Virus record (IMG/VR): IMGVR_UViG_3300007735_000786
Coordinates: 1-64,000 of that record
Source: a virus
Strand: one strand, 5' to 3'
Length of the DNA: 64,000 bases
Position 1 is the stretch's first letter; every line of letters starts with the position of its first letter. Below the pieces are notes generated by a model that saw nothing but the letters and a program-made list of their open reading frames with translations, was not told where the DNA came from and ran no database searches. Positions 14,108 through 16,977 of this stretch are shown piece by piece. Position numbers and translations under genes: made by a program.

Positions 14108-14659
14108 ATGTATACCCCCGGTCCTCAAGCTGTACCACAGGTTCAAACCCCTCCTGTTCAAGAGGTAACGCAACCACAAGCTAAGATCAAAGCACCTAGT
14201 AAATCTAAGGGTGGGGATGTTGGTTCTTTTATTCAGCAGTTAATTTCATTAATGGCTTATGTGCACCAGCTTCAGGTGCAAAGTCACTTGATTCATCTGA
14301 ATATAGAAGGGTCAAATTTTTTTGGCGTACACAAGTTCCTGAAACATCAGTACGAAGCACACATCGAACAGTTTGATAAACTTGGGGAATTTATTCGCAG
14401 CATGGACTATCTGCTCCCTTCCTGCCACAACGGTTTGATGGAAGCAAGCCCAGAGTTCAAGCACTGCACCAGCTATAAAGCAACTGAGATGCTAGGTGTG
14501 TACTACAAAAATCTTGAGGAGTTGGGCATGAAGACTAAAAAACTAGAGCCTATTGCTGCCAAGGTAGGTGCCATTGATATCCAGAATTACATGGCTGAGC
14601 TGTGTGGGGAAGCGTTTAAAGCGGCATGGATGATTAAAGCTACTCTTCGAAACTCTTAA
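14108..14659 (+). CDS. Dps-like ferritin (DNA protection protein)
   Basis: 183 residues. After a Pro/Gln/Lys-rich tail of about 38 residues comes a four-helix ferritin-like body. H63, H75, D90 and E94 reproduce the exact spacing of the Dps ferroxidase ligands (12, 15 and 4 residues, as E. coli H51, H63, D78, E82), inside IEGSNFFGVHKF, which mirrors the family's VKGPNFF-LH motif. The family Asp four residues after the second His is Lys here. Dps proteins oxidise Fe(II) with peroxide and shield DNA. The basic Pro-rich tail could bind DNA. An active iron role is likely but unproven. Confidence 0.7.
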   Translation: MYTPGPQAVPQVQTPPVQEVTQPQAKIKAPSKSKGGDVGSFIQQLISLMAYVHQLQVQSHLIHLNIEGSNFFGVHKFLKHQYEAHIEQFDKLGEFIRSMDYLLPSCHNGLMEASPEFKHCTSYKATEMLGVYYKNLEELGMKTKKLEPIAAKVGAIDIQNYMAELCGEAFKAAWMIKATLRNS

Positions 14660-15095
14660 GATACTTAATAGCTGAGTAAAATAAACTTACATCATCATTA
14701 AGCATTCCTAAAGAAGTATTACATTTTATACACAATAACCCTCTTACTTTTCCTGTTTTGTGGCAATGATCTACGGATAAAGTTTGTTTACTTGAACATT
14801 TTTTGTTGCAGATTTTACATACTTCTTTTTGTTTTTCAAGCATTTTGTAATATTCTTTAGCTGATAACCCATAACGTTTTATCCATTTTTCTTGTTTTTC
14901 CTTTTGATTTAGACCATGCCAATGCTTTAAACTTGCTTTGCGATATATTTCAGGATTTTTTTTGCGATATTCATTTGTTATTTTTGTATGACAAAGCTTG
15001 CAACGTCTTGCTCGTCCATCTTTTACCCTTGATTCTTTGTAAAAATCTTCAAGTAGTTTTAGTTCATTGCAGACACCGCAAACTTTTTTTGACAT
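14640..15095 (-). CDS. Endonuclease VII-like HNH homing endonuclease
   Basis: 151 residues. CGVCNELKLLEDF and CKLCH form an N-terminal zinc site; then YGLSAKEYYKMLEKQKEVCKIC and LSVDHCHKTGKVRGLLCIKCN form the recombination endonuclease VII fold with its catalytic DHCH motif. Stand-alone copies in phages act as mobile homing endonucleases. It converges with the Dps-like gene, overlapping its last 20 bases. Confidence 0.85.
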   Translation of the reverse strand: MSKKVCGVCNELKLLEDFYKESRVKDGRARRCKLCHTKITNEYRKKNPEIYRKASLKHWHGLNQKEKQEKWIKRYGLSAKEYYKMLEKQKEVCKICNKKCSSKQTLSVDHCHKTGKVRGLLCIKCNTSLGMLNDDVSLFYSAIKYLKSFEE

Positions 15096-15124: not shown

Positions 15125-15370
15125 TCATTGCCAGTGCTCAAGCCTATGACAGTTAGCACATAAAGGAATACATTTATCAATTTCTTTTTGGATGCGCTGC
15201 CAGGCGTATCCTCCATGTAAAAGAGCTGATACTTTGTTATCCTTTTCTTTTTCGTGATGAAAATCTAACAATCGATAATCATCTGTTCCACAGCGCCTGC
15301 AACACAACGTCTTTTTGTACTCCAGCATTTTTTCTTTATTTTTTTGAAGTGTGCTTTTGGTGGATGGCAC
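15125..15370 (-). CDS. HNH endonuclease
   Basis: 81 residues. CRRCG, LLDFHHEKE and CIPLCANCHRLEH form a compact HNH site with two CxxC pairs. Next to a second endonuclease of another type, so this spot looks like a hot spot for homing genes. Both are AT-rich compared with their neighbours. Catalytic residues look intact. Confidence 0.8.
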   Translation of the reverse strand: MPSTKSTLQKNKEKMLEYKKTLCCRRCGTDDYRLLDFHHEKEKDNKVSALLHGGYAWQRIQKEIDKCIPLCANCHRLEHWQ

Positions 15371-15823: not shown

Positions 15824-15839
15824 GTGCGCCCCCAGGTTT

Positions 15840-16041
15840 GTGCATCGTTGAGAGGCATAGGGGGTCAGCGAGCAGGAGACGATCAACTCCCCTGGCCTAC
15901 CAAAGTAGGACTTAGTACGCAAACCAAGTGTTAGAGGACTTGGCTGCACCCTACCGGCAGAGCAGTAGGGGTGGTAGATGGACCAGGTGTGTCGCCTTCT
16001 GAGCTATGTGCTCAACGCGCACAGTGACCTGGCCTCTATCA
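15840..16041 (-). ncRNA. Structured non-coding RNA region
   Basis: About 200 bases without a gene but full of stems: CCTAC/GTAGG (15896-15900 with 15905-15909), CCAAGT/ACTTGG (15924-15929 with 15938-15943), CACCCTAC/GTAGGGGTG (15947-15954 with 15965-15973, one bulge), CCAGGT/ACCTGG (15983-15988 with 16027-16032) enclosing TGAGC/GCTCA (16000-16004 with 16010-16014). A good promoter on the minus strand sits just before it, so the minus strand is taken as the RNA, running on into the tRNA-like part. No known RNA family is recognised. It could also be a decayed tRNA cluster. Confidence 0.5.
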
Positions 16042-16333: not shown

Positions 16334-16543
16334 TTACTTCTTCTTTGTTGGTTTAGATTGTCTTGCTTTTTTACCAGCTTCTTTGGCGGCTTTTGTGTTA
16401 GGTACAAATTGCTTGCCGGACTTACTAGCTTCTCTCTTCTTGCGATCAGTTTTTTCACGTTCTTCTTTTGATAAAGAAGCCCATGCTTTTTCTGGTAAAT
16501 ACCGTTTGGTATATCCAGGTTGGATAGCTTTGTCAGCAGCCAT
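16334..16543 (-). CDS. Small basic conserved-looking protein
   Basis: 69 residues. The LPEKAWASLSKEEREKTDRKKREASKSGKQFVPNT stretch is of a type seen in phage small basic proteins with a GKQFVPNT signature. Function unknown. Its ATG overlaps the stop of the interrupted gene upstream (TAATG), so it is probably translated by ribosomes that finish that frame. Confidence 0.6.
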   Translation of the reverse strand: MAADKAIQPGYTKRYLPEKAWASLSKEEREKTDRKKREASKSGKQFVPNTKAAKEAGKKARQSKPTKKK

Positions 16544-16728
16544 TACTTTGACTCCTTATATTTTTTAGCCGCAGACTTAGCTTTACTACGTTTTTCATAT
16601 TCATCTTTCGTGCCCCACTTCTCTTTTCCCCACCTCTCTAAATCTTTTTGCTTCTCACCTTTCCCCCCTTGGTATCCACCACCAGCTTTTTCATATTCTT
16701 GTGCAACAAGTTGAGCCTTACGTGCCGA
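16543..16728 (-). CDS. Second part of interrupted small gene
   Basis: From the Ser codon TCG (16728-16726) this frame reads SARKAQLVAQEYEKAGGGYQ and on to a stop that overlaps the next ATG. It has no start codon of its own. Joined to the frame at 16747-16851 it gives one 94-residue basic protein, in which KPGEWS runs straight into ARKAQ, a junction familiar from cyanophage and DUF5872-type proteins (GKPG-WSARKAQL). So this is one gene split by 21 bases. Confidence 0.65.
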   Translation of the reverse strand, partial: SARKAQLVAQEYEKAGGGYQGGKGEKQKDLERWGKEKWGTKDEYEKRSKAKSAAKKYKESK

Positions 16729-16749
16729 AATTATTTAGCCTCACGGCTA
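16729..16749 (-). other. 21-base coding gap, possible bypass element
   Basis: On the minus strand the gap begins with the stop TAG directly after a TCG codon, forms a TAGCC-GTGA-GGCTA hairpin with a GNRA-type loop, carries three in-frame stops (TAG, TGA, TAA), and is followed by a second TCG codon from which the frame resumes. A GAGG ribosome-binding-like sequence lies 10 bases before that second TCG. These are the marks of translational bypassing as in T4 gene 60. A plain 21- or 24-base insertion that breaks the gene is the alternative. Confidence 0.5.
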
Positions 16750-16851
16750 CGACCATTCCCCTGGTTTACCACCACGACCTTCACGCATTACACGGTTTTT
16801 AATGCGTTCACGAAGATCGGGTTTGGTGTACTTGCTTTTGTCTTCAGTCAT
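16747..16851 (-). CDS. First part of interrupted small gene
   Basis: 34 residues, with a good ribosome-binding site (GAGG before the ATG). It begins SKYTKPDLRERIKNR and ends in GGKPGEWS at a UAG stop. The C-terminal continuation lies in the same frame after 21 bases. Related sequence (NKYTKPELRD) starts the remnant at 16897-16977, so the locus seems to have duplicated. Confidence 0.65.
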   Translation of the reverse strand: MTEDKSKYTKPDLRERIKNRVMREGRGGKPGEWS

Positions 16852-16896
16852 AACTTCCTCGCTCTTTAAGATAAGTAACTGCGTTTGTCAATACAT

Positions 16897-16977
16897 CTAT
16901 ATTATCACCAAACAAACCCAGGGCCCTGTTGCATCACGTAATTCCGGCTTAGTATATTTGTTATCTTCTTGAGCCAT
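16897..16977 (-). pseudogene. Truncated paralogue of the interrupted gene
   Basis: 26 codons that open with NKYTKPELRD, closely like SKYTKPDLRE of the adjacent interrupted gene, then drift into unrelated residues and stop. It is taken as a remnant left by duplication and deletion at this locus. Confidence 0.5.

Follow-up and report, generated by a model that had tools for sequence, protein, structure and literature searches.

The stretch of DNA analysed here, referred to as the window, covers 64,000 nucleotides (nt) of the 72,751-base virus record IMGVR_UViG_3300007735_000786 in IMG/VR, and it carries on its minus strand a phage gene whose coding sequence is split by a gap of 21 nt. The window primase is 57.5% identical over its whole length to that of Synechococcus phage S-EIV1, the next match lying far behind, and the window belongs to an S-EIV1-like cyanophage. 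The gap separates an upstream half of the gene (A') from a downstream half (B) and lies between two TCG codons, called here the take-off and landing codons. It recurs at the identical codon in ~49 other IMG/VR contigs, and the ~50 contigs including the window represent 40 distinct sequences, of which 38 are complete; the counts of gapped sequences given below refer to these 38. The features of the window locus are as follows.

16851, minus strand: ATG, start of the split gene, whose first half ends ...KPGEWS
16750..16851, minus strand: A', duplicate N-terminal half, MTEDKSKYTKPDLRERIKNRVMREGRGGKPGEWS; the same half is found in the 38 gapped sequences
16750..16752, minus strand: take-off codon TCG, TCG in 38/38 gapped sequences
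16749-16747, minus strand: UAG stop, first codon of the gap, directly 3' of the take-off TCG
16729..16749, minus strand: coding gap of 21 nt, TAGCCGTGAGGCTAAATAATT / UAGCCGUGAGGCUAAAUAAUU, opening with UAG and forming the 3' end of a mobile cassette
16736..16749, minus strand: candidate take-off hairpin UAGCC-GUGA-GGCUA with a GNRA loop and the same stem as the take-off hairpin of T4 gene 60
16726..16728, minus strand: landing codon TCG, TCG in 36/38 and TCT in 2/38 gapped sequences
16543..16728, minus strand: B, C-terminal half, S-ARKAQ...YKESK and TAA; the sequence after the landing TCG is ARKAQLVAQEYEKAGGGYQGGKGEKQKDLERWGKEKWGTKDEYEKRSKAKSAAKKYKESK

The first TCG is thus followed by UAGCC-GUGA-GGCUA AAUAAUU and then by the second TCG, with three in-frame stops (UAG, UGA and UAA) inside the gap. 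A sequence-only reading of this DNA had placed the end of the frame 16851-16747 at KPGEWS and TCG-TAG, its resumption as ARKAQLVAQEY at a second TCG 21 nt on, and the hairpin and stops between them, and had proposed translational bypassing of the T4 gene 60 type; all of these positions and elements were found as described. The TAA of B (16545-16543) overlaps the next ATG (16543) by one base, as that reading had also noted. Its statement that B continues a known phage protein was borne out by the joined product of 94 amino acids, which matches phrog_17747 across the junction (8.4e-18). The match of the joined product to DUF5872 is weak (24.2 bits, below the cut-off of 27.5), and judged by its sequence the split gene is of the DUF5872 type. 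The corresponding protein of S-EIV1 (KJ410740; DUF5872/phrog_17747) is 72% identical to the window protein over residues 1-75, but its gene lacks both gap and endonuclease at this position. No Ser codon is used less in the window phage than TCG, which accounts for 5.2% of the total.

Among the relatives found in IMG/VR by tblastn, many genes are ungapped, with an unbroken W-S-A-R-K, and others carry an insert at precisely the codon of the window. A search with the gap pattern returned 37 contigs, every match lying in a DUF5872-type gene, and a further pattern search returned 11 contigs more. A search by the upstream endonuclease, which is independent of the gap, gave 42 loci, and every endonuclease of the clade with a readable 3' side was followed by A', TCG, UAG and a gap. 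A looser pattern, TGGTCGTAGCN{6,34}TCGGC, was dropped because chance matches swamped it, and the pattern TCGTAGCCGNRAGGCTA gave 34 matches in 84,980 bacterial and archaeal genomes, none of them bypass-like by open reading frame (ORF) context. Recurrence in ~50 contigs rules out a sequencing error. The gap is 20 nt long in 2 sequences, 21 nt in 12, 24 nt in 13 complete ones, 25 nt in 6, 26 nt in 4 and 30 nt in 1, and since these lengths include non-multiples of three, all three frame offsets between A' and B occur. Whatever the length, B without exception starts again with a Ser codon and then A-R-K-A-Q, and A' and B are open and intact in all 38 sequences. Comparison with related phages had been put forward as a check on bypassing; the gap proved to be conserved, with a length that varies by non-multiples of three, which favours bypassing over a broken gene.

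The two codons that border the gap are strongly constrained. The take-off codon was invariably TCG also in the endonuclease-based search, which ignores the gap, whereas ungapped relatives use TCG at the corresponding Ser in about 1/36 (Fisher p 8e-18 for gapped against ungapped, counted as 37/39 with one truncated duplicate included and uncorrected for relatedness). The codons after the landing site vary freely (GCA, GCT, GCG or GCC, then AGA, CGT, CGC and others). Bypassing would yield the same protein as an ungapped gene, with a single Ser at the junction as in the ungapped proteins; this is what one expects if the peptidyl-tRNA pairs again at the landing codon and that codon is not decoded a second time. 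The UAG follows the take-off codon directly in 38/38 sequences, and a UAGCC-GNRA-GGCUA hairpin beginning at this UAG is present in 37/38; its loops (GUGA, GUAA, GCAA, GGGA and GAAA) vary in a way that would fit selection on an RNA tetraloop. The recurrence of the gap, the UAG and the bordering Ser codons in the ~49 other contigs, together with the rarity of TCG in this phage, puts the resemblance to T4 gene 60 claimed for the window (matched codons, adjacent stop, hairpin at the stop) far beyond chance. The T4 gap (NC_000866) opens with UAGCC-UUCG-GGCUA, a stem that is the same as here, and because the UAG fixes three of the five stem pairs, convergence with the T4 stem is possible. A' is basic and carries a KSKY or similar motif 26-29 residues before take-off, much of which is shared by ungapped relatives; the nascent-peptide signal of T4 is KKYK, ~30 residues before take-off.

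Both halves of the gene are under purifying selection, in agreement with the claim that they look undamaged. The ratio of nonsynonymous to synonymous differences (pN/pS) is 0.075-0.21 in A' within gap classes having more than one pair, and 0.098-0.172 in B across gap classes, compared with 0.137 for ungapped genes. Between the members of the four closest pairs, B differs by 28 synonymous and 0 nonsynonymous changes; three of these pairs have identical gaps, and the 25-nt gaps of the fourth (L084/L255) are one base apart (24 of 25 nt identical).

The gap is part of a mobile element of freshwater cyanophages. At most loci an ORF of ~200 amino acids with a DHNH motif lies upstream of A' and matches PF02945 Endonuclease_7 (1.5e-22); its TGA overlaps the ATG of A', and upstream of it stands a relic of the original N-terminus of the host gene, which ends at KPGQ, the insertion point. 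In the window the duplicated N-terminus and an endonuclease remnant occupy 16977-16844 directly upstream, and they had been missed by the sequence-only reading:

16844..16933, minus strand: C-terminal remnant of the endonuclease, CNRALGLFGDNIDVLTNAVTYLKERGSYD and stop, last 29 codons, overlapping the ATG of A'
16934..16977, minus strand: relic of the original ungapped N-terminus, MAQEDNKYTKPELRD, 44 nt, cut by the deletion

The window is a deletion derivative in which the N-terminal relic was fused to the tail of the endonuclease, so that the endonuclease was lost and the gap kept. Other loci (L204, L219, L213/L227 and L223) likewise have no endonuclease and keep the gap. In L213 and L227, which have 26-nt gaps, another ORF (MRFAAVPGY...) adjoins A' upstream and neither endonuclease nor relic was seen; these two loci are either rearranged or an older derivative. 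When the occupied locus L217 is aligned with the empty locus L016, both flanks are 91-94% identical and 763 nt stand in place of 1 nt. The right flank restarts exactly at the landing codon in this pair and in L233/L020, L215/L020, L214/L016, L273/L016 and L210/L005; the cassette therefore ends, on its 3' side, with the gap, and the landing codon belongs to the host gene, being its own Ser codon. The cassette consists of an Endonuclease_7 homing endonuclease, the duplicate 5' half-gene A' and the gap, and inserts exactly at the W|S junction. To explain where the gap occurs on the tree of B takes 12 changes, of which 7 or more are forced, close to the 13.4 obtained with shuffled labels (94/500 shuffles as low), whereas the six states of gap length can be placed on the tree of A' with 7 changes only. 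Endonuclease, A' and gap accordingly move as a unit and have invaded the gene repeatedly. In the loci analysed A' was never seen without a gap, nor the endonuclease at an empty site; a search by a profile of diverse endonucleases did not reveal a copy in genes other than this one, and four distant Endonuclease_7 loci (L276, L277, L279 and L280) have no gap alongside. At the left end of the cassette, before the endonuclease start (L217, L218 and L206), there is a hairpin, TTTTGTGC...GCACAAA (z score -2.7), which may control translation of the endonuclease.

The explanation that we favour, with a probability of about 0.88, is that expression of the gene involves programmed translational bypassing of a gap that forms the 3' end of a mobile homing-endonuclease cassette. 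It draws on the anatomy of the locus, its recurrence, the precise boundaries, the resumption at Ser independent of frame, the selection on both halves and the repeated insertion, and the bypassing proposed in the sequence-only reading is strongly supported by comparative genomics. The ribosome would translate A' until the TCG is in the P site, and the A site would then meet the UAG and the UAGCC-GNRA-GGCUA hairpin, so that it would stall at UCG-UAG. The peptidyl-tRNA(Ser) would release the first TCG, the mRNA would slide by 20-30 nt (21 in the window), and the tRNA would re-pair on the next TCG, decoding restarting at GCN to give the normal W-S-A-R-K protein with one Ser. Presumably the gap splits the endonuclease target, so that the cassette escapes cutting and bypassing keeps the protein whole. 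Sliding of the ribosome, immunity as the reason for the gap and activity of the endonuclease are proposed by analogy with T4, in which take-off is driven by a stem-loop formed in the A site (PMC11194080), and the gap may protect against the endonuclease (PMC5009743).

Several observations weigh against this explanation. Two sequences (L266 and L275) land on TCT, and with their TCG take-off they constitute a natural test of how exactly the codons must match. In L263, from the same contig as L011, the gap TAGCTATAATATTAAATAATT has lost the hairpin (-1.4 kcal/mol), which means either that bypassing can do without the hairpin or that it is inefficient in this copy; endonuclease, A' and B are all intact at this locus. 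The hairpin in its window form is not exceptional against shuffles (z -1.3). A GAGG is indeed present 10 nt before the second TCG, as had been stated, and RAGG occurs in 37/38 sequences, but the distance of this Shine-Dalgarno (SD)-like site to landing is not fixed; because it varies from 9 to 19 nt and the site lies inside the hairpin, the GAGG probably represents no more than the hairpin's 3' arm. The SD-like GAG near the T4 landing site has a modest effect. No shared counterparts of the T4 5' and 3' stem-loops were found, the 5-bp hairpin helix being the only one common to the 21-, 24- and 25-nt classes; in T4 these stem-loops are stimulators and not defining features. A candidate 5' stem, ACGCAUUA/UAAUGCGU, ~35-60 nt upstream of take-off, is present in the window and weak in the 21- and 24-nt classes, and was rejected because it is largely codon-dictated and absent from the 25-nt class. 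Finally, the B frame of the 20-nt class is opened by an ATG or GTG that overlaps A' at its end, and codon 7 of B is ATG in 13 sequences, including all with gaps of 25, 26 and 30 nt, so that separate initiation of B is less improbable in these two groups.

Separate initiation is the core of the alternative that survives best, which we nevertheless consider unlikely: A' would stop at the UAG, B would be made on its own by non-AUG re-initiation near the landing site or from an internal start, and the two pieces would cooperate, just as T4 genes 39 and 60 are split proteins that work. Besides the start codons just mentioned, ATA or ATT often precedes the TCG in the gaps with an SD-like AGG upstream. 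Against this, no start codon is common to the classes. The B-frame codons before landing are, by class, ATA ACT, ATA ATA, CTA ATT ATT, AAT, TGA, CTA or TTA; in eight sequences TGA stands immediately before the landing codon, and between the last in-frame stop and B codon 45 the window and eight others contain no ATG, GTG or TTG. Re-initiation at AUU is plausible in the window and fails in relatives (ATA ACT, ATA ATA, TGA), and a +1 reading through the gap halts at UAA. A split gene also leaves the TCG at both ends, the UAG beside it and the hairpin unexplained.

It is very improbable that the gap is the scar of a disabling cassette and that B is decaying. The cassette insertion does interrupt the gene, and the original N-terminal relic is broken, with start or frame lost, at several loci (L206, L209, L215, L231 and the window). 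This decayed relic serves as an internal control for the look of decay, and unlike it A' and B are open throughout; the pN/pS of B (0.10-0.17), the purely synonymous changes in the close pairs and the nearly fixed UAG, hairpin and Ser codons also speak against a broken gene. Removal of the gap before translation, as a very small RNA intron or by DNA-level excision, would likewise be frame-independent, the gap acting like a translational intron, but it is the least probable of all, as no Rfam intron match was found in the window, known self-splicing introns are far longer than 20-30 nt, and the sole direct repeat is the Ser codon, which two sequences (TCG/TCT) lack.

Further elements lie downstream of the gapped gene on the minus strand of the window. 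An Endonuclease_7 gene (14640-15095; PF02945, 1.8e-24) and a small HNH-like ORF (15125-15370; below cut-off) are situated ~1.2-1.9 kb downstream and are possibly further homing endonucleases, and an Rfam abiF RNA (RF03085; 49.7 bits, cut-off 37) is found at 15828-15864, ~700 nt downstream.

According to a paper of 2020, coliphage T4 was until then the only case in which bypassing had been observed (PMC7576135), and full-text searches of one literature library revealed no report of the cyanophage gap system. Like T4 gene 60, this system has identical take-off and landing codons, a UAG directly after take-off and the UAGCC/GGCUA stem; the gap adjoins a homing endonuclease that has inserted into the gene (PMC3014915, PMC5009743, PMC11194080), relatives without the endonuclease are without the gap, and the gap outlives a defective or lost endonuclease. 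The differences are a Gly GGA codon in T4 as against Ser UCG here, a gap of 50 nt as against a variable 20-30 nt, a UUCG as against a GNRA loop, MobA (H-N-H) as against an Endonuclease_7-type enzyme, and a topoisomerase gene as against a DUF5872-type gene; only here is the whole 5' half-gene duplicated by the cassette, and dozens of natural variants exist. The byps of Magnusiomyces capitatus mitochondria are also short inserts in coding sequences that are skipped in translation, but their 81 instances are largely context independent, have imperfectly matched codons and are read by mitochondrial ribosomes (PMC5009743), and they have no endonuclease cassette or conserved hairpin of the cyanophage kind. 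Short bypasses in a phage or bacterial gene have been proposed for the Streptomyces phage Hau3 terminase and the Prevotella loescheii adhesin; the former rests on a UUA codon and the latter is a single 29-nt report without follow-up (PMC5009743), and neither has family-wide evidence as in the cyanophage gene. The cyanophage system thus appears to work like T4 gene 60, and its sequence does not indicate descent from T4, given the differences in codon, gap length, loop, nuclease and host gene; it is apparently a second phage bypassing system, independent of T4.

With ~40 natural variants that differ in gap length, loop, frame offset or landing codon, and with matched empty sites, it becomes testable which signals are needed, whether the UAG-first UAGCC hairpin is the take-off core, and why bypass gaps adjoin homing endonucleases. 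We suggest tentatively, at somewhat short of even odds, that homing endonucleases which invade genes use bypass gaps as a general device, T4 gene 60 being one case. If so, the element would end in a short "translational intron" (UAG and a tetraloop hairpin) that blocks self-cutting, ribosomes would hop to the next matching codon of the host gene regardless of its frame, and the UAGCC/GGCUA stem of T4 would be shared by descent or by strong convergence.
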